DNA of 64,000 nucleotides from Sanguibacter keddieii DSM 10542 (GTDB lineage: Bacteria; Actinomycetota; Actinomycetes; Actinomycetales; Cellulomonadaceae): positions 3,348,001 to 3,412,000 of the forward strand of contig NC_013521.1 in the NCBI RefSeq assembly GCF_000024925.1, given 5' to 3'. The notes under the pieces were generated by a model that saw nothing but the letters and a program-made list of their open reading frames with translations, was not told the origin of the DNA and searched no databases. Of the stretch, positions 25,824 to 52,405 are shown piece by piece (within the stretch, counting starts at the first letter, position 1; the number at the start of each line of letters is the position of its first letter). The position numbers and the translations under genes are program-made.

Positions 25824-27464
25824 TCAGACCTCGTCGAGGCGCGGGAACAGCGAGGCGCCCTTGGTGACACGGGTGCCGGCGGGCAGCTGGCCGAACTCGG
25901 CCGCCGTCTGCACCGGCTGCGCACCGAGCGGGCCGAGCGGCTCCTCGGCGCCGAGCGCCGTCCACAGTCCCTCTGCCGCCTTGGGCACCACCGGGTTGAG
26001 GAGCACCGCGAGGGTGCGCAGCGCCTCCGCGGCGGTCACGAGGATGGTCGCCAGGCGCCCGCCCTCGACGCCGGCGCCGCTCTCGGTGGTCTCCCCCGGG
26101 AGCTTGGCGACCTTCCAGGGCTCCTGCTCGGTGAGGTAGAGGTTCGTGGCGTCGACGAGGGCCCACACCGCGTTGATCGCCTCGTTGGGCGAGATGCGGT
26201 CGATCGCGGCCTCGGCCTCGGCGACGGCCTTCGCCGCGACCTGCTGGAGGGCGGTCTCGGCGTCGCCGGAGGAGCCGGGGCGCGGGAGCGAGCCGCCGAA
26301 GTTCTTCGAGATCATGGCGGCGACGCGCGAGGCGAGGTTGCCGAAGCCGTTGGCGAGCTCGGCGTTGTAGCGCGCCGAGAGGTCCTCCCACGAGAACGAG
26401 CCGTCCTGCCCGAAGGGGATGGCCCGCATGAAGTAGTAGCGGAAGGCGTCCGAGCCGAACACGTCGGTGATCTGCGTCGGGGCGATGCCGGTGAGCTTGG
26501 ACTTGCTCATCTTCTCGCCGCCCACGAGCAGCCACCCGTGCGCGAAGACCGTCTTGGGCAGCGGGAGCCCCGCGGCCATGAGCATCGCGGGCCAGATCAC
26601 CGCGTGGAAGCGCAGGATGTCCTTGCCGACCAGGTGGACGTCGGCCGGCCACGTGGAGGCGAAGCGCTCGCGCTCGGCCTCGTCGTCGCTGTCGAGGCCG
26701 ATGGCGGTCGCGTAGTTGAGCAGCGCGTCGAACCACACGTACAGCACGTGCGAGGTGTCCCACGGGATGGGGATGCCCCAGTCGAAGGTGTTCCGCGAGA
26801 TCGAGAGGTCCTGCAGCCCGCCCTTGACGAAGGCGAGGACCTCGTTGCGCGCGCTGGCCGGCTGCACGAACTCCGGGTGCTCCTCGTAGAGCGCCAGGAG
26901 GCGGTCGGCGTAGGCGCTCATCTTGAAGAAGTAGTTCTGCTCGGAGAGCATCTCGACCGGGCGGCTGTGGATCGGGCAGAGCTTGAGGCCCTCGTACTCC
27001 CCCGTGCCGTCGAGCAGCTCACCGGGGAGCTTGTACTCCTCGCAGCCCACGCAGTAGGGACCCTCGTAGGAGCCCGCGTAGATCTCGCCCTTGTCGTGCA
27101 GGTCCTGGATGAACCGCTGGACCCGCTCGGTGTGGCGCGGCTGCGTGGTGCGGATGAAGTCGTCGTTGCGGGCGTCGAGGGTCTCGAGGACCGGCTCCCA
27201 CGACGACTCGACGAGGCGGTCGGCCCACTCCTGCGGCGTCACGCCGTTGGCCTCGGCGGTGCGCATGACCTTCTGCCCGTGCTCGTCGGTCCCCGTGAGG
27301 AACCAGACGCGCTCCTGGCGCTGGCGGTGCCAGCGGGTCAGGACGTCGCCCGCGACCGTCGTGTACGCGTGCCCGATGTGCGGGGCGTCGTTCACGTAGT
27401 AGATCGGGGTGGTGAGGTAGAAGGACTGCGTCCCGGTGGGCGCTGCGGTCTCGTCGTGGGCCAT
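25824..27464 (-). CDS. metG: Methionyl-tRNA synthetase (main copy)
   Basis: Class I synthetase charging tRNA-Met, 546 residues. It has the HIGH box as HIGH (APHIGHAYTTVAGD), the zinc knuckle CVGCEEYKLPGELLDG...CPIH, the SFYLTTPIYYVN start and a canonical KMSKS. The anticodon-binding helical domain follows (AELANGFGNLASRV), without a C-terminal tRNA-binding module. ATG 27464 follows TAGCAT by seven bases, so the transcript is probably leaderless. A divergent second copy lies at 47536. Confidence 0.96.
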   Translation of the reverse strand: MAHDETAAPTGTQSFYLTTPIYYVNDAPHIGHAYTTVAGDVLTRWHRQRQERVWFLTGTDEHGQKVMRTAEANGVTPQEWADRLVESSWEPVLETLDARNDDFIRTTQPRHTERVQRFIQDLHDKGEIYAGSYEGPYCVGCEEYKLPGELLDGTGEYEGLKLCPIHSRPVEMLSEQNYFFKMSAYADRLLALYEEHPEFVQPASARNEVLAFVKGGLQDLSISRNTFDWGIPIPWDTSHVLYVWFDALLNYATAIGLDSDDEAERERFASTWPADVHLVGKDILRFHAVIWPAMLMAAGLPLPKTVFAHGWLLVGGEKMSKSKLTGIAPTQITDVFGSDAFRYYFMRAIPFGQDGSFSWEDLSARYNAELANGFGNLASRVAAMISKNFGGSLPRPGSSGDAETALQQVAAKAVAEAEAAIDRISPNEAINAVWALVDATNLYLTEQEPWKVAKLPGETTESGAGVEGGRLATILVTAAEALRTLAVLLNPVVPKAAEGLWTALGAEEPLGPLGAQPVQTAAEFGQLPAGTRVTKGASLFPRLDEV

Positions 27465-43028: not shown

Positions 43029-43086
43029 GGGTGCACTTCCTCGTGTGTCAGGGGACTGTCTGGAGACGTCGTGCCCGGCTTCGTCA

Positions 43087-43152
43087 TCGAAATTTCGAAA
43101 ACATGTTCCGAAAGGGCCCGTCGAGGGTAGTGACCCACGTCTCACCCGTCAA
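43087..43152 (-). promoter_or_regulatory. Promoter and candidate operator of the hydrolase gene
   Basis: On the minus strand TTGACG (43147-43152) and TACCCT (43124-43129) are 17 bp apart, a strong promoter. Just downstream of the likely start lies unusually AT-rich sequence with the perfect palindrome TCGAAATTTCGA (43087-43098) and an adjacent imperfect one around ACATGT. Repression by the nearby LacI regulator is inferred. Confidence 0.6.
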
Positions 43153-43221
43153 CCCGTGGCACAAGCAGCGAATCGGACAGCCGATGTCGCCCCTCGGCCA
43201 CCCGACCCCTCGGAATTCCCA

Positions 43222-43240
43222 GCAGGTAAGGCTATCCTCA
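43222..43240 (+). promoter_or_regulatory. IdeR/DtxR-like iron box
   Basis: GCAGGTAAGGCTATCCTCA matches the known 19-bp IdeR/DtxR consensus (TTAGGTTAGGCTAACCTAA) at 14 positions. It covers the -10 box TATCCT (43233-43238), which ends seven bases before the ATPase start at 43246. Repression by iron-loaded regulator is expected. Confidence 0.7.
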
Positions 43241-43245
43241 CCCAC

Positions 43246-44094
43246 GTGAAGCCTTCCTCCACCGGCTCCGGAGCACCCGCCGAGCACCCCTCGCTCGCCG
43301 GCTCCGACCTGTTCCTCGCCTACGACCGGTCGACCGTCGTGCACGGCGCGTCGCTCGACCTCGTCGCCGGGCGGGTCACCGCGCTCATCGGGCCCAACGG
43401 GTCCGGCAAGTCGACCCTGCTGCGCTCGCTCGCCCGCCTCCACCGCCCCACCTCGGGCACCGTGAGCCTGCCCGACGCACCGGACGCCCTCGCGCTCAAG
43501 CCCAAGGACTTCGCCCGCCAGGTGACCCTCCTGTCGCAGAGCCGCCCGACCCCCAACGGGGTCACCGTCCGCGACATCGTCGGCTACGGTCGCCACCCCT
43601 ACCAGGCCCGCTACCGCCGCACCGACGCCGACGGCCCCCGTGCCGTCGCCCACGCGATGGAGGTCACCGGGGTCACCGGCATGGCCGACCGCGGCGTCGA
43701 CGAGCTCTCCGGCGGCGAGCTGCAGCGCGTCTGGCTCGCGACCTGCCTCGCCCAGGACACCGGCGTGCTCCTGCTCGACGAGCCCACCACCTACCTCGAC
43801 CTGCGCTACCAGGTCGAGATCCTCGACCTGGTGCGCGACCTCGCCGACGACCACGGCGTCGCCGTCGGCGTCGTCCTGCACGACCTCAACCAGGCCGCAG
43901 CCGTGGCCGACCACGTCGTCCTGCTCCGCAGCGGCGTCGTCCAGGCCTCCGGGTCCCCCGTCGACGTCCTCACCGCCGACCTGCTCAGCGAGACCTACGG
44001 CCTGCGCATCGACGTCAGCGTCGACCCGGCCACCGACCTCGTCCGCACCGAGCCCGTCGGGCGCCACACCACCCGTCGCACCCAGCCCGCCTGA
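43246..44094 (+). CDS. Iron-siderophore ABC importer, ATPase
   Basis: FepC/FhuC-type ATP-binding subunit of 282 residues: Walker A GPNGSGKST, ARQVTLLSQSRPTPNGVTV, the signature LSGGELQRVWLA, Walker B VLLLDEPTTYLDLRYQ, and switch His in VVLHDLNQAA. GTG 43246 follows the TATCCT -10 box by seven bases, so the mRNA is probably leaderless and the iron box overlaps the promoter. The lipoprotein and the permease follow on the same strand. Confidence 0.92.
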   Translation: MKPSSTGSGAPAEHPSLAGSDLFLAYDRSTVVHGASLDLVAGRVTALIGPNGSGKSTLLRSLARLHRPTSGTVSLPDAPDALALKPKDFARQVTLLSQSRPTPNGVTVRDIVGYGRHPYQARYRRTDADGPRAVAHAMEVTGVTGMADRGVDELSGGELQRVWLATCLAQDTGVLLLDEPTTYLDLRYQVEILDLVRDLADDHGVAVGVVLHDLNQAAAVADHVVLLRSGVVQASGSPVDVLTADLLSETYGLRIDVSVDPATDLVRTEPVGRHTTRRTQPA

Positions 44095-44100
44095 GCGGGC

Positions 44101-44199
44101 TGCCCTGCCTGCCCCGAGCCCTCCTGCCCCTGCTCTGCCTGCACCTGCTCTTCCTCCAGCTGCTCTACCTGTCCCGGCCCTGCCTGCTCCGGCCCTGAC
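44101..44199 (+). repeat. CTGCC-rich spacer between ATPase and lipoprotein
   Basis: About 100 bases of degenerate CTGCCTGC/CCTGCTC repeats, almost purine-free on the plus strand. No protein is supported. It could affect transcript folding or be a slippage-prone tract. Confidence 0.45.
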
Positions 44200-44218
44200 C
44201 TCACACCGAAGGACACCC

Positions 44219-45217
44219 ATGCGCACGTCCCGCCTGCTGGCACTCCCCGCCGCGCTGCTCACCGCCGCGCTCACGCTCACCGCGTGCGGCACCACCGAGC
44301 CCGCCGGCTCCGAGACCACCGACGGGGCCCCCGCAGCCTCCTCGGGCCCGGTCACCTACACCGACGAGCGCGGCGAGCACACCCTCGACGCACCTGCCAC
44401 CGCCGTCGTCTCGCTCGAGTGGGGCCTCACCGAGAACCTCCTCGCCCTCGGCGCACCGATCGTCGGCCAGGCCGACGTCGCCGGCTACAACACCTGGGAC
44501 ACGTCCATCGCCCTCGACGAGGACACCCCCGACGTCGGCACCCGCGGCGAGGCCAGCCTCGAGGCCATCTCCGCCCTCGAGCCCGACCTCATCGCCGTCA
44601 CCACCGACACCACCGACGCCGTCGTCGACCAGCTCGAGGACATCGCGCCCGTCGTGGTGCTCCGCGGCTCGGACGGCACCGACCCGATCGGGTACATGCG
44701 CAGCACCGTCGAGACCCTCGCCGCCGCGACCGGCACCGACGCCCGGGGCGAGGAGCTCCTCGCGTCCTTCGACGCGAAGGTCGCCGACGCCAAGACCACC
44801 CTCGAGGAGGCGGGCGTCGACGGCGCCGCCTTCACCATGGCCGACGGCTGGATCACCAACGGCACCGTCTCCGTCCGCATGTACACCGCAGGCTCGTTCC
44901 TCGGCGCCATCGCCGACGAGCTGGGCCTCGAGAACGCCTGGGCCGGCGAGGGCGACCCCGTCTACGGTCTCGCGCAGACCGACATCGAGGGCCTCACCGC
45001 GCTCTCCGACACCCAGGACCTCACCTTCCTCTACGCCGCGAGCGACAGCGAGGACGACCCCTTCGCCGACGGCCTCGCCGGCAACGCCATCTGGGAGCAG
45101 CTGCCCTTCGTGACCGCCGGCGACGTGCACCGCATCCCCGACGGCATCTGGATGTTCGGCGGCCCGGCCTCGGCCGAGGCGTACGTCGACGCCCTCGTCG
45201 CCGCGCTCACCGCGTGA
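44219..45217 (+). CDS. Iron-siderophore-binding lipoprotein
   Basis: Class III periplasmic-binding-type lipoprotein of 332 residues anchored through Cys23 (TLTAC). The fold is the FecB/FhuD kind: TYTDERGEHTLDAPATAVVSLEWGLTENLLALG, the Asp/Glu-rich YNTWD region, EAISALEPDLIAVTTD and a closing AYVDALVAALTA helix. ATG 44219 is preceded by AAGGA. The GTGA overlap with the next gene indicates coupling to the permease. Siderophore specificity unknown. Confidence 0.9.
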   Translation: MRTSRLLALPAALLTAALTLTACGTTEPAGSETTDGAPAASSGPVTYTDERGEHTLDAPATAVVSLEWGLTENLLALGAPIVGQADVAGYNTWDTSIALDEDTPDVGTRGEASLEAISALEPDLIAVTTDTTDAVVDQLEDIAPVVVLRGSDGTDPIGYMRSTVETLAAATGTDARGEELLASFDAKVADAKTTLEEAGVDGAAFTMADGWITNGTVSVRMYTAGSFLGAIADELGLENAWAGEGDPVYGLAQTDIEGLTALSDTQDLTFLYAASDSEDDPFADGLAGNAIWEQLPFVTAGDVHRIPDGIWMFGGPASAEAYVDALVAALTA

Positions 45218-47340
45218 GCACCGCGCAGGGGCGGGTCGCCCACCGAGCCACCCCGCTCGTGCCCGACGGTCGCGGCGAGCAGCCGCAGGCCACCGGGCGG
45301 CACCCGCTCCTGCGCACCGGCGCGGTCTTCCTCGCCACCACGCTGCTCGTCGTCGCGCTCGCCGCCGTGCACCTCACGCAGGGCACCGCGGGTCTCGGGC
45401 TCGGCGACGTGGTCCGAGCCCTGCTCGGGCAGGACGACGGGTCGACCGCGGCCGCGGTGCTCGTCGCCTCCAGGCTCCCCCGCCTCGTGGCCGGCCTGCT
45501 CGTCGGCGCGGCGCTCGGCGCCGCCGGGGCCGCGCTGCAGTCCGTCGCCCGCAACCCGCTCGCCTCTCCCGACACCCTCGCGGTCAACGCCGGCGGCTAC
45601 CTCGCCGTCGTCGCCGCGGCCGTCGTCGGGCTCACCCTGCCCTTCTACCTCTCCGGGCTCCTCGCCTTCGTCGGCGGGCTCGCGGCCGCCGGGCTCGTCC
45701 TCGCACTCTCGCAGGGCGGCAGCTCTGGCCCCACCCGGCTCATCCTCGCGGGTGCCGCGACGACCCTCGCGCTCAGTGCCGTCACCAGCGTGCTGCTCAT
45801 CCTCTTCCAGCAGGAGACGCTCGGGCTCTTCGCGTGGGGCAGCGGGTCCGTCGTGCAGTCCGGGACCCGCGTCGTGACCCTCGCGGCGCCCGTCGTCGCC
45901 GTCGGGCTGGTCGGGCTGGCGCTGCTCGCGCGGCGTCTCGACCTGCTCGCCCTCGGCGACGACGCCGCGCGCGTGCTCGGCGTCGACGTCCGCGGCACCC
46001 GCGTGCTCACCGTCGGCGTCGCGGTGCTGCTCTCCGCCGCGGCCGTCACCGTCGCCGGACCGATCGGCTTCGTGGGGCTCTGCGCACCCGTGCTCGCACG
46101 TCTCGTGGCCCGGACCGTCCCCAGCCTGAGCCGTCACACGACGCTGCTGCCGCTCGCCGCGCTCTTCGGCGTCGTCGTGGTGCTCGGCGCAGACGTCCTG
46201 CTGCGGCTCCTGCTGCCCGGGCAGTACAGCGCGGCCGTGCCCACCGGCATCGTCACGACCGTCTTCGGCGCGCTGACCCTCGTGCTCCTCGCCCGCAGGC
46301 TCCGCGACTCCGGCCCGGCCGCCGGAGGGTCCACCGCGCACGTGCGACCGCGCACCGTCCGCCGCGCGGTCGTGGTGACCGTCGTGCTCGGGGCGCTGCT
46401 CGTCGCCGCAGGCCTCCTGGCCGTGCTGCTGGGTGACCGCATGCTGCTGCTCGGCGACGTGTCGAACTGGTTCGCCGACCAGGCCGGGCGGCAGGTGTCC
46501 TTCGTCCTCGACCAGCGGATGCCGCGCGTGCTCGCAGCGCTGCTCGCCGGTGCGGCGCTCGGGCTCGCCGGCACCCTCGTCCAGGCCGTGTGCCGCAACC
46601 CGCTCGCCGAGCCCAGCCTGCTCGGCGTGACCGCCGGCGCCGGGCTCGGCGCGGTGACCGTCATCCTGCTCGTCCCCGGCGCCCCGGTCTGGGCCATGTC
46701 GCTCGCGGCGGCCGCCGGGGCCTTCGTCGCCTTCGGGCTCGTCTACCTGCTGTCGTACCGCGGCGGGCTGAGCTCCGACCGCCTCGTGCTCATCGGCGTC
46801 GGGATGAGCGCGGGCGCGACCGCGATCACCACCCTCGTGATCGTCGTGGTGCAGCCGTGGAACGCGAACCTCGCGCTCACCTGGCTGTCCGGGTCCACCT
46901 ACGGACGGACCATGGCGCAGATCGTGCCCGTGGCGCTCGTGCTGCTCGTCGCGACGCCGCTCGCGCTGTCCCGGCGCCGAGAGATGGACGTGCTGTCCCT
47001 CGACGAGGACACGCCACGCACCCTCGGGGTCGGGGTCGAGCGCACCCGGCTGCTGCTGCTGTCGGCGACCGTGCTCATCACCGCCGCCGCGGTGTGCGCC
47101 GTCGGGGTGGTCGGGTTCGTGGGGCTCGTCGCCCCGCACGCCGCACGGGCGCTCGTCGGCTCGCGCAACGGCCGGGTGATCCCCGTCGCGATGCTGCTGG
47201 GCGCGTTGCTCGTCTCGGTCGCGGACACCGTGGGCCGCACGGTCATCGCCCCGGCGCAGATCCCCGCCGGTCTCACGACCGCCCTCATCGGCGCGCCCTA
47301 CTTCGTGTGGTTGCTGTGGCGGCAGCGGACGGTGCGGTGA
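45214..47340 (+). CDS. Iron-siderophore ABC importer, fused double permease
   Basis: A single 708-residue chain holding two complete FecCD permease units, as in FhuB, instead of separate subunits. The first half has RLPRLVAGLLVGAALGAAGAALQSVARNPLASPDTLAVNAGG and GPIGFVGLCAPVLARLV; the second repeats it with RMPRVLAALLAGAALGLAGTLVQAVCRNPLAEPSLLGVTAGA and VGFVGLVAPHAARALVG. About 20 membrane segments in total. GTG 45214 overlaps the lipoprotein stop (GTGA). Confidence 0.9.
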   Translation: MSTAQGRVAHRATPLVPDGRGEQPQATGRHPLLRTGAVFLATTLLVVALAAVHLTQGTAGLGLGDVVRALLGQDDGSTAAAVLVASRLPRLVAGLLVGAALGAAGAALQSVARNPLASPDTLAVNAGGYLAVVAAAVVGLTLPFYLSGLLAFVGGLAAAGLVLALSQGGSSGPTRLILAGAATTLALSAVTSVLLILFQQETLGLFAWGSGSVVQSGTRVVTLAAPVVAVGLVGLALLARRLDLLALGDDAARVLGVDVRGTRVLTVGVAVLLSAAAVTVAGPIGFVGLCAPVLARLVARTVPSLSRHTTLLPLAALFGVVVVLGADVLLRLLLPGQYSAAVPTGIVTTVFGALTLVLLARRLRDSGPAAGGSTAHVRPRTVRRAVVVTVVLGALLVAAGLLAVLLGDRMLLLGDVSNWFADQAGRQVSFVLDQRMPRVLAALLAGAALGLAGTLVQAVCRNPLAEPSLLGVTAGAGLGAVTVILLVPGAPVWAMSLAAAAGAFVAFGLVYLLSYRGGLSSDRLVLIGVGMSAGATAITTLVIVVVQPWNANLALTWLSGSTYGRTMAQIVPVALVLLVATPLALSRRREMDVLSLDEDTPRTLGVGVERTRLLLLSATVLITAAAVCAVGVVGFVGLVAPHAARALVGSRNGRVIPVAMLLGALLVSVADTVGRTVIAPAQIPAGLTTALIGAPYFVWLLWRQRTVR

Positions 47341-47341
47341 G

Positions 47342-47371
47342 TTGTCCTCCGACCCGGCACACGGGCATGAT
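47342..47371 (+). promoter_or_regulatory. Promoter of the Met leader and second MetRS
   Basis: TTGTCC (47342-47347) and CATGAT (47366-47371) are 18 bp apart. The -10 ends six bases before the ATG of the leader peptide (47378), the spacing seen at the other leaderless genes in this window. The promoter begins one base after the permease stop, so the MetRS unit is separate. Confidence 0.6.
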
Positions 47372-47377
47372 CGAGCC

Positions 47378-47428
47378 ATGAGCTTCTCGACGACCGCCAC
47401 GATGATGCGCCTCCACCCGGGGGCCTGA
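47378..47428 (+). CDS. Met-rich leader peptide (attenuator)
   Basis: A 16-codon reading frame, translated MSFSTTATMMRLHPGA, too short to be called by length alone. Two adjacent ATG codons lie at 47402-47407. Its ATG sits at the expected leaderless start. Its stop overlaps the first of three G/C segments that can pair alternatively, immediately before a methionyl-tRNA synthetase gene. This is the layout of ribosome-mediated attenuation, in which stalling at scarce Met-tRNA changes RNA folding. Translation is not proven. Confidence 0.7.
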   Translation: MSFSTTATMMRLHPGA

Positions 47429-47473
47429 CTCACGCGTACTCGTCGGACCGAGGCCCCCGCACTGCGGGGGCCT
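47418..47473 (+). promoter_or_regulatory. Attenuator: mutually exclusive antiterminator and terminator
   Basis: Segment 1, CGGGGGCCT (47418-47426), is complementary over nine bases to segment 2, AGGCCCCCG (47451-47459). Segment 2 also pairs with segment 3: AGGCCCCCGC (47451-47460), loop ACT, GCGGGGGCCT (47464-47473), a ten-bp terminator hairpin. A ribosome stalled on the Met codons leaves segment 1 free, so 1-2 forms and the terminator cannot. A ribosome at the stop codon covers segment 1 and 2-3 forms. No long T-run follows, as is usual in such GC-rich genomes. Confidence 0.7.
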
Positions 47474-47535
47474 TCGTGCGTCATCACCTCCGCAGAGCGT
47501 CCCGTGCACACCGCACACACCCTCCGGAGGACACC

Positions 47536-49146
47536 ATGGACGACCTGTACATCACCACCTCGATCCCCTATGTCAACGGCCGCCCGCACCTGGGCCACGC
47601 CCTCGAGCTCGTCCACGTCGACGTCCTCGCCCGGCACCGGCGGCTGCGCGGCGCGCAGGTCCGGGTCCAGTCTGGGACCGACGACCACGCACTGAAGAAC
47701 GTCAGCGCGGCGTCTCTCGCGGGCGTCCCGGTGGCCGACCTGGTCGCCGCCAACGGCGACAGGTTCGTCGAGCTGGTCGACGCCCTCGGGGTGCGCACGG
47801 ACGAGTTCGTGCGGACCAGCAGCGACCCGCGGCACGCACCCGGGGTGGTCGCGCTCTGGGAGGCGTGCCGGGCCGCCGGGGACCTCTACCAGAAGGACTA
47901 CACCGGGCTCTACTGTCCCGGCTGCGAGCAGTTCTACGCCGCCGACGAGCTGGTCGACGGGCTGTGCGGCGAGCACGGCACGCCCGTCCAGGAGGTCACG
48001 GAGACCAACTGGTTCTTCCGGCTGTCTCGCTACCGGGACCAGGTGGCCGCACTCGTGGCGAGCGGCGAGGTCGCGGTCGAGCCACGGCAGCGTCGCAACG
48101 AGGTGCTGGGGTTCCTCGCCGGCGAGGTCCACGACATCTCGGTGTCGCGACCGGCGGACCGCGCGGGCGGGTGGGGCGTCCCGGTCCCGGGCGACCCGGG
48201 ACAGGTCGTCTACGTGTGGTTCGACGCGCTCGTGAACTACCTGACCGGCCTGGGGTACGGGAGCGAGACGGGCCGGGGTGCCGCCGTCGGCCGAGAGGCT
48301 GACGCTGTCCGCGGAGGACGCGAGTCCGTCGGTGCAGCGGGCGAGGCCGTCGAGGTCAGCGTGGCGGTCGACGTCGGCGTCGGCGTCGAGGAGCCCTTCG
48401 CCCGGTGGTGGGGCGGCGGTGCCGAGCGCACGCACGTGCTCGGCAAGGGCATCGCCCGGTTCCACGCCGTCTACTGGGTCGCGTTCCTGCTCTCGGCCGG
48501 GCTGCCGCTGCCGACGCGGGTCCTGGTGCACGACTACCTCACGGTCGACGGCGCCAAGATCGCCAAGAGCGGGAGCCAGGCCGCCGACCCGGCCACCGTG
48601 GTAGCGACCTACGGTCCCGACGCCCTGCGCTGGTGGCTGGCCCGTGACCCGGCGCCGGTGGGGACGACCGACTTCACCGTCGAGCGCCTCGTGGGCTGCT
48701 ACGACCGCGACCTGGCCAACGGGCTCGGCAACCTCGTCTCCCGCACGCTGACGCTGGCACGCCGTGACCGGAGCTGGTCGGCACCGCCGACCGCAGAGGT
48801 CGGGGTCGAGGTTCGGGCAGCCGCGCGCGCCCTGCCGGACGCCGTCGACGCCGCGCTCGCCCGGTACGACCTCCGGAGCGCCTGCGAGGCCATCACCGGG
48901 CTCGTCGAGCACGGCAACAGGTTCATCGAGGGCGAGGCGCCCTGGCGGCTCGCCCGGGCCGCCGACGCCGGAGATCTCGAGGCCGCCGCCCGGTTCGAGG
49001 GGGTCGTCGACGCGCTGGTGGAGCTGTGCCGGGTAGCGACGCACGAGCTCGAACCCTTCGTACCGGAGGGGGCGGCGAGGCTCGTCGCGCAGCTCGACGC
49101 CGGGGTCGGGCGTCCTGTGCCGGCGTTCCCGCGGATCGGCGGGTAG
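47536..49146 (+). CDS. Second methionyl-tRNA synthetase, divergent copy
   Basis: MetRS paralogue of 536 residues. The HIGH box reads HLGH (PYVNGRPHLGHALELV), the zinc knuckle CPGCEQFYAADELVDGLCGEH is kept, and the KMSKS box is altered to KIAKS. An extra Gly/Val/Glu-rich stretch of about 45 residues precedes the WGGGAERTHVLGKG motif. The anticodon-binding helices are shorter than usual but recognisable (LANGLGNLVSRTLTLARRD). ATG 47536 has CCGGAGG five bases upstream. Such duplicates can confer resistance to MetRS inhibitors or serve special conditions; I cannot tell. Expression is probably attenuated by the upstream leader. Confidence 0.85.
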   Translation: MDDLYITTSIPYVNGRPHLGHALELVHVDVLARHRRLRGAQVRVQSGTDDHALKNVSAASLAGVPVADLVAANGDRFVELVDALGVRTDEFVRTSSDPRHAPGVVALWEACRAAGDLYQKDYTGLYCPGCEQFYAADELVDGLCGEHGTPVQEVTETNWFFRLSRYRDQVAALVASGEVAVEPRQRRNEVLGFLAGEVHDISVSRPADRAGGWGVPVPGDPGQVVYVWFDALVNYLTGLGYGSETGRGAAVGREADAVRGGRESVGAAGEAVEVSVAVDVGVGVEEPFARWWGGGAERTHVLGKGIARFHAVYWVAFLLSAGLPLPTRVLVHDYLTVDGAKIAKSGSQAADPATVVATYGPDALRWWLARDPAPVGTTDFTVERLVGCYDRDLANGLGNLVSRTLTLARRDRSWSAPPTAEVGVEVRAAARALPDAVDAALARYDLRSACEAITGLVEHGNRFIEGEAPWRLARAADAGDLEAAARFEGVVDALVELCRVATHELEPFVPEGAARLVAQLDAGVGRPVPAFPRIGG

Positions 49147-49252
49147 GGGCGGGTTCTGGGGGGCTGGGGGCCGGGGCGGGCTCGGGGTCAGGGCTCGGGT
49201 GGAGGTGGGCACGGGCCAGGGCCAGGGCCTGGGTGGAGGCGGCGTCTGGTGG
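49147..49252 (+). repeat. G-rich intergenic tract
   Basis: About 100 bases with many runs of three or more G on the plus strand, plus repeats of GGCCAGGGCC. It may form G-quadruplexes or simply terminate the MetRS transcript; no hairpin with a clear T-run is seen. The rest of the 235-bp gap holds the iron box and leader of the next gene. Confidence 0.4.
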
Positions 49253-49285
49253 TTCCCACCAGCCAAGACACCCCCAGTAGGCAAG

Positions 49286-49304
49286 TTAGGTAATGCTACG
49301 CTAA
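49286..49304 (+). promoter_or_regulatory. IdeR/DtxR-like iron box
   Basis: TTAGGTAATGCTACGCTAA matches the 19-bp IdeR/DtxR consensus at 15 positions, better than the box before the ATPase gene. It lies about 80 bases before the start of the second siderophore lipoprotein, consistent with iron repression of that gene. Confidence 0.75.
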
Positions 49305-49381
49305 CCTCCGCCGACGAGCCTGCGCTCCGTGCCGCCTGGCCCGTCCCACACTCTCCAGCACCTCCCCCGGAAGGACCCTCG

Positions 49382-50362
49382 ATGAGCACGCCCACGCACC
49401 GCCGCTCAGCCCGCCGTGCCGCACGGCTGGCAGCACCCCTGCTCGCCGTCGCGCTGCTCGCCGGCTGCTCGACCGTCACCGACGACGCCGACGCGACCTC
49501 GACCAGCGCCGCCGCAGGTGACGACACCGCCGCGCCCGACGACACCGCCGCGACCCACAGCGTCGAGCACGCGCGCGGCACCACCGAGGTCCCGGCCGAG
49601 CCGCTGCGGGTCGTGGTCCTCGAACCCGTGCAGCTCGACACGGCGGTCGCACTGGGTGCCGTCCCCGTCGGGGCAGCCGTGCTCAACGAGGAGGCCGGGG
49701 TCCCGGCGTACCTCGGCGAGGCCGCGGCGAACATCGAGTCCGTCGGCACCGTCACCGAGCCGAGCATCGAGAAGATCGCCGCGCTCGAGCCCGACCTCAT
49801 CCTCGGCACCGAGTCGCGACACTCTGCGCTCTACGACCGCCTCGACGAGATCGCGCCGACCGTGTTCATGGCGACGCAGACCGACCCGTGGACCGAGAAC
49901 GTCGAGCTCGTGGCCCGCGCCCTCGGCGACGAGGCCGGGGCACAGACCCTCCTCGACGCCTTCGAAGCGCGCTGCACGGAGGTCGCCGAGGACCACCAGA
50001 CCGCGGGCAAGACCGCCCAGCTCATCCGCCCGCGCGACGGTCTCCTGACGCTCTACGGGCCCACGTCCTTCGCGGGGAGCGTCCTCGAGTGCGCCGGCTT
50101 CACCACGCCCGAGCGCGACTGGGAAGAGTCCATCTCCGTGGACCTGTCCTACGAGCGCGTCTTCGAGGCCGAGGCCGACCTCGTGCTCGTCACGACGACC
50201 GACACGTCCGACCAGAGCACCCTGCCCGAGGTGCTCGCCACGAACACCGACGCGTTCCCGTCGCTGCACCTCGTGGACCAGTCCTTCTGGATCACCGGCG
50301 TCGGCCCGCTCGGCGGGATGACCGTGCTCGACGACCTCGACCGGCTGCTCGCAGAGCAGTAG
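49382..50362 (+). CDS. Second iron-siderophore-binding lipoprotein
   Basis: Lipoprotein of 326 residues with Cys29 in LLAGC, distant from the first one at 44219. The FecB/FhuD core is present: EPVQLDTAVALGAVPVGAAVLNEE, IEKIAALEPDLILGTESRHSALYDRLDEIAPTVF and the last helix VLDDLDRLLAE. ATG 49382 has GGAAGGA upstream. It has its own iron box and no own permease, so it may share the importer encoded at 43246-47340. Confidence 0.88.
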   Translation: MSTPTHRRSARRAARLAAPLLAVALLAGCSTVTDDADATSTSAAAGDDTAAPDDTAATHSVEHARGTTEVPAEPLRVVVLEPVQLDTAVALGAVPVGAAVLNEEAGVPAYLGEAAANIESVGTVTEPSIEKIAALEPDLILGTESRHSALYDRLDEIAPTVFMATQTDPWTENVELVARALGDEAGAQTLLDAFEARCTEVAEDHQTAGKTAQLIRPRDGLLTLYGPTSFAGSVLECAGFTTPERDWEESISVDLSYERVFEAEADLVLVTTTDTSDQSTLPEVLATNTDAFPSLHLVDQSFWITGVGPLGGMTVLDDLDRLLAEQ

Positions 50363-50371
50363 CCGAGGCGG

Positions 50372-50451
50372 GGCTCGGCAGAGCGAAGCGGGGCGTGGCA
50401 GAGCGAAGCAGGGCTCGACAGAGCGAAGCAGGGCTGCAGCGCACAGCAGGA
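50372..50451 (+). repeat. Four 20-bp tandem repeats
   Basis: Three close copies of a 20-bp unit, GGCTCGGCAGAGCGAAGCGG and variants, at 50372-50391, 50392-50411 and 50412-50431, followed by a degenerate fourth (50432-50451). It sits between the lipoprotein stop and a terminator and shows no coding potential. Confidence 0.6.
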
Positions 50452-50506
50452 AGGGAAACGGCTGGCAGAGCAAGCCACAGCTAAGACAGTCGAGCTTCGA
50501 GAGAGA

Positions 50507-50554
50507 AGAGACGCGGGTCCCACACCGGTGCATCGGTGAGGGGCCCGCGTCTCT
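50507..50554 (+). terminator. Terminator after the lipoprotein gene
   Basis: AGAGACGCGGG (50507-50517) and CCCGCGTCTCT (50544-50554) form an 11-bp stem, with further pairing inside the 26-base loop. It lies about 145 bases past the lipoprotein stop and before the HNH gene promoter. Confidence 0.65.
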
Positions 50555-50635
50555 GTGCGAGACAGGCTGCTTGCGCCGGGTGTCGGCGGCAAGCGGCTCT
50601 CGCCGGATGTCAGTGGTTATCGGTAGATTCAGGAT

Positions 50636-52405
50636 ATGTCGACGGAACCGCGGAAAACTCGCGAAGCACACAGTGATGGATGTGCTGTGCCGTCGGCTCC
50701 CGCTGCGCCCTCCCCCTCTGCGCTCTCCCCCGCAGAGCCGTCGGGCGTCGTGCCGTCGGACGCTGCGCCTTCGGGCGTCGTGTCTTCGGGCGTCGTGCCT
50801 TCGGATGCCGTGCCGTCGGGCGTCCTGCCACTGCCGTCGCCGGCTGCCGTCGTGAAGCCACCGTCGCCGTCACCTGAGGGTGGGTGGCCTGAGGTGCTCG
50901 AGCCGATGACGGTCGCGCAGATGAACCACCGTCAGGGCGAGCTGGTCGACGCTGTGGTGGCGGGGTTCGCCGAGGTTGCTGCTGCCCAGGCGCGGTGCGC
51001 CCGGCGCGTGGACGACCTGCGCCGCTGGTCCCAGGCTGCCACCGACGCCGTGGCACGTGGCCGGGGTGAGGAGGCGGCGTCCCTGACCGATCAGCGGTCG
51101 GCCGAGCGGTGGTTGGTCTCCGAGGTCGCCTGCGCGCTGCAACTGCCCGAGGGGTCGGCGTCGGCGCTGGTCGCGGACTCCCAGGCCCTGGTCCACGAGC
51201 ACCCCGCCACCATGGCCGCACTGAGCCAGGGCGAGGTGTCCTACCGTCACGCCGAGGCGGTCCTGGGTGCCACGGTGGGCCTGGACGAGACCTCCCGCCT
51301 CGAGCTGGACGTGCTGCTGTCCGAGAGGGCACGGACCACGACGGTCGCAGCCCTCAAGAGGGTGGCGCGCCGTGAGCGGGAGCGCCGTGACTCTCGCCCG
51401 TTGGTCGAGCGTCACCAGGTCGCCACCGTCGAGCGCCACGTGGAGCTCCGACCCTGCCAGGACGGCATGGCGTGGCTGCACCAGTACCTGCCCGCAGTCC
51501 AGGCCACAGCCATCTTCAACCGCCTCACCGACATCGCGATGGCGGTCCAAGGCCCCGACGAGCCCCGCACCCTGGCCCAGCTGCGCGCCGACGCCAGCGT
51601 GGACCTACTCCTCGACGACGACGCACGGACCGCCCTGACTGCCGCCACAGTCACGGGCGCGGACGGCAACAGCGAGGACCGTGCCGTCGCGGCTAGCGAG
51701 GCCGCGCCTCACTACGCCGGAGAGCCGACTCAGTCGATCGCTGGGGTTGCCGACCGCGTCTCCCTGGGTGGCATCAAGCCCCAGGTCGCCGTCACCATCC
51801 CCGTCATGACCCTCCTCGGACACTCCGACGAGCCCGGCGAGCTCGCCGGACACGGCCCCATCGACGCACACACCGCCCGACGCCTCGCCGCACAAGCCCC
51901 CAGCTTCCTGCGGATCCTCACCCACCCCGAGACCGGCACCGTCCTCTCAGTCGGACGCGACCGCTACGCCGTACCCGCAGACCTCAAGACCTGGCTACGC
52001 ATCCGCGACGAGACCTGCCGCTTCCCCGGCTGCTCACGCCGCGCACAACGCTGCGACATCGACCACGTGAAGGACTGGGCCCACGGCGGAACCACCGACC
52101 ACCACAACCTCATCCACCTCTGCCGACACCACCACCGGTTGAAGCACACCACTGCCTGGACAGTGAGCACCGGACCGCCGGGCAGTACCCCACCCGACAA
52201 GCCCTCATCTCGCCAGGGCGCACCGTACCGCGCCCCAGCGCACCACGACTCGGACCTCACGGCCGACGTCGTGCACTGGACCGCGCCTACCGGTCGCACC
52301 TACCTCGACCACGCGGCCGTCCAGATCGCCTCTAGGCAAGCAGAGGTCGCTGCGCTGTCCGCACCTCATCCTGTTCCTGGGCCCGATGACGAGCCACCGT
52401 TCTGA
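50636..52405 (+). CDS. DUF222/HNH endonuclease domain protein
   Basis: Protein of 589 residues common in actinobacterial genomes, with a DUF222 helical body and a C-terminal HNH nuclease motif (about 460-500): ETCRFPGCSRRAQRCDIDHVKDWAHGG, NLIHLCRHHHRLKH. The Cys and His residues fit the treble-clef zinc/HNH site. A degenerate Pro/Ser repeat (PSGVV, PSDAA) in residues 34-65 is encoded by a 15-bp DNA repeat. ATG 50636 is six bases past TAGATT, a leaderless layout. Its biological role is unknown; the family often multiplies in genomes. Confidence 0.88.
   Translation: MSTEPRKTREAHSDGCAVPSAPAAPSPSALSPAEPSGVVPSDAAPSGVVSSGVVPSDAVPSGVLPLPSPAAVVKPPSPSPEGGWPEVLEPMTVAQMNHRQGELVDAVVAGFAEVAAAQARCARRVDDLRRWSQAATDAVARGRGEEAASLTDQRSAERWLVSEVACALQLPEGSASALVADSQALVHEHPATMAALSQGEVSYRHAEAVLGATVGLDETSRLELDVLLSERARTTTVAALKRVARRERERRDSRPLVERHQVATVERHVELRPCQDGMAWLHQYLPAVQATAIFNRLTDIAMAVQGPDEPRTLAQLRADASVDLLLDDDARTALTAATVTGADGNSEDRAVAASEAAPHYAGEPTQSIAGVADRVSLGGIKPQVAVTIPVMTLLGHSDEPGELAGHGPIDAHTARRLAAQAPSFLRILTHPETGTVLSVGRDRYAVPADLKTWLRIRDETCRFPGCSRRAQRCDIDHVKDWAHGGTTDHHNLIHLCRHHHRLKHTTAWTVSTGPPGSTPPDKPSSRQGAPYRAPAHHDSDLTADVVHWTAPTGRTYLDHAAVQIASRQAEVAALSAPHPVPGPDDEPPF

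Follow-up and report, generated by a model that had tools for sequence, protein, structure and literature searches.

Comparison of related sequences points to a recurrent leader-peptide attenuator that would sense methionine and control a clade of methionyl-tRNA synthetases (MetRS). In the window, i.e. the whole 64-kb stretch of DNA analysed here, it precedes the gene of MetRS-B, a divergent MetRS. Devices of this type are known; this specificity and this controlled gene were not found described. The unit is very probably a ribosome-mediated transcription attenuator that senses charged Met-tRNA. The preliminary description of this DNA had interpreted it in the same way, and the tandem-Met leader, the promoter spacing and the alternative pairing in relatives support that interpretation, the mechanism itself being strongly suggested. 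Several amino acids are known to be sensed by leader-peptide attenuators. Methionine is an awkward case, as initiation also needs Met-tRNA, and a recurrent Met attenuator on MetRS makes the working of such a sensor testable.

Parts of the leader region

All parts of the unit lie on the forward strand. The putative promoter (47342–47371) consists of TTGTCC (47342–47347), an 18-nt spacer and CATGAT (47366–47371). After a gap of 6 nt, the ATG codon at 47378–47380 opens the probably leaderless leader ORF MSFSTTATMMRLHPGA (47378–47428), which ends with the stop codon TGA (47426–47428). Its 16 codons include two adjacent ATG codons (47402–47407), as re-reading of the sequence confirmed; by the sequence and by comparison with relatives these are the candidate tandem Met control codons.

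Four segments follow, and the three G/C segments noticed initially as 1, 2 and 3 all exist and are numbered 2, 3 and 4 here. The additional segment 1, GCCTCC (47409–47414), was missed at that stage. It is the 5' arm of a protector hairpin revealed by the stem search, starts 1 nt past the second Met codon and pairs with GGGGGC (47419–47424). Segment 2, CGGGGGCCT (47418–47426), is a partner of segment 1 or segment 3 according to the sequence, the stem search and folding; its overlap with the leader stop codon, claimed earlier, amounts to one base. Segment 3 (47447–47460, core AGGCCCCCG at 47451–47459) would provide both the 5' arm of the terminator and the 3' arm of the antiterminator. Segment 4 (47464–47477), the 3' arm of the terminator-like hairpin, repeats CGGGGGCCT at 47465–47473. 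Pairing of segment 3 with either neighbour is present at the positions originally given: segments 2 and 3 form nine perfect base pairs, and segments 3 and 4 form 13 pairs over 14 positions (47447–47460 with 47464–47477), more than had been claimed.

The 3:4 hairpin is strong in the window, but no real U tract follows it, which weighs against the attenuator as proposed. Together with the GC-rich surroundings, this would suit a genuine Met leader that switches via Rho or via metRS translation rather than via an intrinsic terminator, and S. lividans leaders are often devoid of a U tract too, in the passages available from PMC8079986. We regard such a switch as improbable, given that 48 nt separate the end of the hairpin from the Shine-Dalgarno sequence of MetRS-B (GGAGGA, 47526–47531, 4 nt 5' of the ATG), which it leaves uncovered, and that the tails of some relatives are rich in T (GAGGCGGTTTTTTT in L108, CGTTTCCGTTTC in L149). 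As for T-boxes and other Rfam riboswitches, the search of positions 44000–52000 with E-values up to 10 returned only b55, whose 20.3 bits fall short of the gathering score of 70, and this candidate was rejected.

Compared to dinucleotide shuffles of itself, the leader RNA (47379–47535) is more stable (z −3.39), and none of 200 shuffles equals it. When its GC-rich spacer is shuffled, the antiterminator of the window proves only weakly unusual (p 0.109), but it is the best of all when compared to control windows of its own upstream region (fraction 0.000). The protector stem is ordinary when taken alone, with 44% of control positions being as good. It is the conservation in relatives, rather than the single sequence of the window, that puts the leader unit beyond chance.

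Recurrence of the leader, its promoter and its pairings

Upstream regions of MetRS genes were searched for short ORFs with tandem Met codons at most 300 nt upstream of the gene, with shuffled sequences as a control. Such ORFs were found at 44 of 53 MetRS-B loci from whole genomes (1.3% in shuffles) and in 0 of 26 upstream regions of MetRS1, the other MetRS (0.2%); the latter comprise 21 regions from MetRS-B genomes and five from Sanguibacter, with the MetRS1 of the window as locus L002. The genome_contigs scan, in which the best 80 of 406 relatives were used for upstream regions, yielded 19 of 27 close relatives (shuffles 1.1%), L052 being left out since its upstream stretch is too short, and 3 of 52 more distant MetRS loci (L076, L099 and L108; shuffles 0.7%). 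The two locus collections overlap (e.g. L066/L165 and L060/L138), and their rows are not independent. The comparison with related MetRS-B genes, proposed in the preliminary description, shows that both the tandem-Met leader and the alternative pairing are kept. Leader peptides of relatives include MNATTAASMMRLHRGT (S. suarezii), MSFSSTVMMRPTRGPS, MTQCTQPMMRPVRGPLRVR, MSVRVESVSMMALLPGSFDAP and VSTARVTAEAASPRMMLMSMPSGLFRAS. The nine of 53 MetRS-B loci with no tandem Met codons count against the attenuator; several of them have a single Met at a similar place (PTMRPS in L139, SMTRPV in L056, RTMAGP in L138 and RRMTAP in L033). The leader ORF together with the hairpins offers a rule for annotating members of the clade in, e.g., Actinoplanes, Kineosporia and Sanguibacter.

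Two of the distant tandem-Met ORFs belong to a Minwuiaceae MAG (L108, −192 to −96 from the MetRS start) and a Pseudomonadales MAG (L076, −233 to −128). The L108 leader is followed by a hairpin and then a run of T. As single cases, both may have arisen by chance.

The promoter spacing is kept as well. Among 59 distinct leaders of the MetRS-B clade, TANNNT ends 6 nt (27 leaders) or 7 nt (19 leaders) 5' of the start codon in 46, and all remaining gaps from 0 to 29 nt account for three occurrences in total. The other 13 leaders miss TANNNT at 6–7 nt; ten of these, including the leader of the window with its CATGAT, have another NANNNT at 6 nt. L157 and L165, for which a downstream start codon was taken, also belong to the 13. 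Since TANNNT stands at a fixed 6–7 nt before most leader starts, the mRNA is probably leaderless, with the transcript starting at the leader ATG. Most leader peptides of S. lividans shown in the accessible part of PMC8079986 are also described as leaderless.

This fixed spacing bears on a different origin of the hairpin. A transporter frame stops at 47340, directly upstream of the unit, and the hairpin could be the terminator of that gene, with the leader ORF arising by chance. We consider this extremely unlikely and rejected it: the arrangement recurs before MetRS-B beside other neighbours and is absent from the 26 MetRS1 loci, so that the leader unit stays with metRS while the flanking genes change, and the results on control windows contradict such an origin too.

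Conservation of the pairings was assessed in 35 representatives picked from loci with tandem ATGATG, of which 34 were scored (L156 was dropped). Segment 2 was defined blind to the terminator, by choosing the best stem next to the Met codons and taking its 3' arm. The antiterminator duplex defined in this way was compared to windows of equal length further upstream, of which a median fraction of 0.009 were as good (34 representatives; the KS p-value of 3e-19 is overstated because the rows are related). The protector stem is stronger than stems at control positions, with a median fraction of 0.17 (p 2e-6). In 25 of the 34, the distance from the first ATG to the beginning of its 5' arm is 4–8 nt. 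Swapping terminators among the 35 representatives weakens the antiterminator pairing (P 0.0008), with some terminators misassigned, as the wrong hairpin was taken in some rows (e.g. L058, L063, L065 and L156); after the revised stem search of the 34 representatives, the hairpins of L058, L061, L062, L063 and L075 still look wrong. Dinucleotide shuffling of the spacers speaks against the attenuator, as p≤0.05 was obtained for the antiterminator in 10 and for the protector in only 2 of 59 sequences; for short GC-rich spacers these shuffles have low power and often pick over-long stems.

Alignment A1 contains 19 of 22 sequences, namely family f38 plus Actinoplanes and Dactylosporangium records, probably Micromonosporaceae. 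L147 and L059 (no anchor) and L060 (a copy of L138) were left out; the L138 protein in this alignment is identical to a Jiangella record. All cells of the protector are paired (100%), and three of its five pairs are invariant. For the antiterminator the share of paired cells is 96.8%, compared to 36–78% when slid, and is no better than in column shuffles. The folded consensus agrees with the pairing of the alignment. Compensatory changes, suggested at the outset as a check of the segments, were found on both sides in two of eight terminator pairs, whereas the protector and antiterminator cores of the 19 sequences have no double compensatory change and hardly vary. Low variation would be expected of an arm engaged in two helices. 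In the MAFFT alignment the register of the Actinoplanes terminators is shifted, and the pair counts come out lower as a result. Between lineages, protectors differ on both sides (GCCTCC/GGGGGC, GGCCCTG/CAGGGCC and GGCCCGC/GCGGGTC), an illustrative comparison, as these stems were selected for pairing.

Proposed switch and related attenuators

The layout suggests an order of Met codons, protector 1:2, antiterminator 2:3 and terminator 3:4, on a transcript that would start at the leader ATG. When Met-tRNA is ample, the ribosome would pass both Met codons, reach the stop codon and cover segment 2. With segment 2 covered or paired back to segment 1, segment 3 would be free, and hairpin 3:4 would end transcription before metRS. 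Charged Met-tRNA could become scarce because of little methionine or because the other MetRS fails or is inhibited. The ribosome would then stall at the Met codons and cover segment 1, so that segment 2 could pair with the freshly made segment 3 and transcription would read through into metRS. If so, the leader is a naturally occurring reporter of the charging state of Met-tRNA in actinobacteria.

Folding was repeated with ribosome masks. The masks assume a footprint edge about 16 nt from the P site. When one of the two Met codons occupies the A site, segment 1 lies under the mask and segment 2 stays exposed, and 2:3 stands at 0.93–1.0 if segment 3 exists and segment 4 does not. A mask at the stop codon abolishes the 2:3 helix, again with segment 4 not yet made. 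Without a ribosome and before segment 4, 2:3 stands at 0.69 at most and 1:2 at about 0.31; in an untranslated leader 1:2 is made first, yet 2:3 is favoured until segment 4 appears. With segment 4 made, the fold strings have the terminator as the best structure under all three masks (none, first Met codon, stop codon). It follows, as a caveat, that 2:3 must form first and hold, i.e. the switch would be kinetic. The E. coli trp leader has the same relation of stabilities. A shortage of methionine would be expected to impair translation initiation at the leader as well, since this step needs fMet-tRNA, and this is a point against the attenuator.

The closest parallel among synthetases is trpRS1 of Streptomyces coelicolor, which Vecchione and Sello reportedly described in 2010 as being under attenuation. 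As is proposed for the unit of the window, it reportedly places an auxiliary synthetase of an actinobacterium under transcription attenuation by means of a leader peptide that carries cognate codons; it differs in sensing Trp and in encoding a TrpRS whose resistance to indolmycin has reportedly been shown, whereas the window has a Met leader and a MetRS. The E. coli trp attenuator also has four segments with the control codons beside segment 1. Unlike it, the window has Met codons, a leaderless ORF, a leader stop codon at the end of segment 2 and no U tract.

Attenuators were predicted for trpS and leuS in actinobacteria, and no conserved structure or attenuator is given before methionine operons, in the passages available from PMC1262725. 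Those from PMC8079986 report S. lividans leaders for alaS, thrS, trpS and leuS, plus metL before metNIQ. The Streptomyces trpS, leuS, thrS and alaS leaders are similarly short ORFs with cognate codons, several of them leaderless, but none is for Met, as far as the excerpts of PMC1262725 and PMC8079986 go. The metL leader peptide is likewise leaderless and contains Met; it differs in preceding the Met importer metNIQ, in its non-adjacent Met codons (CMCRRMC) and in its terminator, which the authors call unclear in the portion of PMC8079986 at hand. The full-text literature search returned no Met leader before MetRS among the matches listed; an earlier mention is possible.

MetRS-B and the possible role of its control

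MetRS-B (47536–49146, forward strand) consists of 536 aa. Its best solved relative is a MetRS (E 1.5e-93), and it matches the NCBIfam MetRS models with scores below the curated cut-offs. Of the class I signatures, HLGH is present and KIAKS replaces KMSKS. The other MetRS of the genome, MetRS1 (25824–27464, reverse strand; PRK12267, 639.4 bits against a cut-off of 598), is encoded in the same window, has no tandem-Met ORF upstream and is 40% identical to MetRS-B over residues 3–244. The genome is a single contig of 4,253,413 bases. In tree rows of MetRS-B where the KMSKS loop was located it reads KIAKS, KLAKS, KLSKS or KISKS; nine of ten MetRS1 control rows were read, giving eight KMSKS and one KISKS.

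Strong matches to MetRS-B occur in 2 of 6 genomes of the genus, and MetRS-B was found in 11 of 221 genomes of the family, 7 of 396 of the order, 37 of 394 of the class and 5 of 396 of the phylum; these samples overlap, and each contains the genome of the window. In a tree of 81 rows, a chosen subset with 26 of the 53 MetRS-B rows (L186 was excluded as too short), one branch with support 100/96 splits the 26 MetRS-B rows from 10 MetRS1 controls, and a 49-row core that includes 24 MetRS-B rows is supported at 100/100.

MetRS-B is an additional MetRS in most genomes examined and the only one found in some. A MetRS1-like gene is also present in 21 of 31 MetRS-B genomes. The PF09334 search covered 20 genomes, 19 of them with MetRS-B, and 15 of these 19 have another strong MetRS-type match (one, L209 of G839, is a MetRS by TIGR00398, above the cut-off). 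In three of the 19 (G617, G772 and G748) no other MetRS is among the PF09334 matches listed. The initial claim that a second MetRS is controlled therefore holds for the window and most genomes, and does not extend to these three. In G665 the sole candidate besides MetRS-B is a MetRS-like stretch within an ORF of 1018 codons (L226, 1027–4083, reverse strand), which scores below the MetRS cut-offs and is perhaps a synthetase paralogue with another task. G665 is probably Frankia casuarinae, in which case genus g155, which also includes G617 and G772, would be Frankia.

A broader proposal is tentative. The Met-tRNA attenuator could be a standing control of the whole actinobacterial MetRS clade, which is the sole MetRS in some lineages (probably Frankia); it would work despite starved initiation and elsewhere double as an inducible back-up against natural MetRS inhibitors. 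An equally tentative view concerns the purpose and is compatible with the attenuator: the same device could have been selected mainly as inducible resistance, with MetRS-B tolerating a natural inhibitor of MetRS1 and being induced when MetRS1 fails. The precedent is the TrpRS of S. coelicolor, reportedly resistant to indolmycin, and the patchy spread of MetRS-B within the genus and family fits. To our knowledge, no MetRS inhibitor is known for MetRS-B hosts, which speaks against selection for resistance, as do the genomes with MetRS-B as the only MetRS found, where plain feedback suffices. MetRS-B starts with IPYVN (IPFVN in L049), compared to IYYVN or IFYVN in the MetRS1 controls. This Pro in place of Tyr or Phe, presumably P12, would favour resistance; P12 and P257 belong to the methionine-pocket positions that vary between MetRS in the available text of PMC8165550. 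Ten flanking proteins from five MetRS-B loci provide no resistance context; they have no family in common, and three have no family at all. Whatever its purpose, a widespread and probably inducible MetRS-B could blunt MetRS-directed drugs.

Flanking genes differ among the MetRS-B loci examined. In the window, MetRS-B sits between siderophore-type ABC transporter genes (43048–47340 and 49379–50362). They include an ATPase of the siderophore type (43048–44094) and a siderophore-type binding protein (49379–50362), both scoring below the equivalog cut-off, and, between these two, a permease frame that was read by eye.
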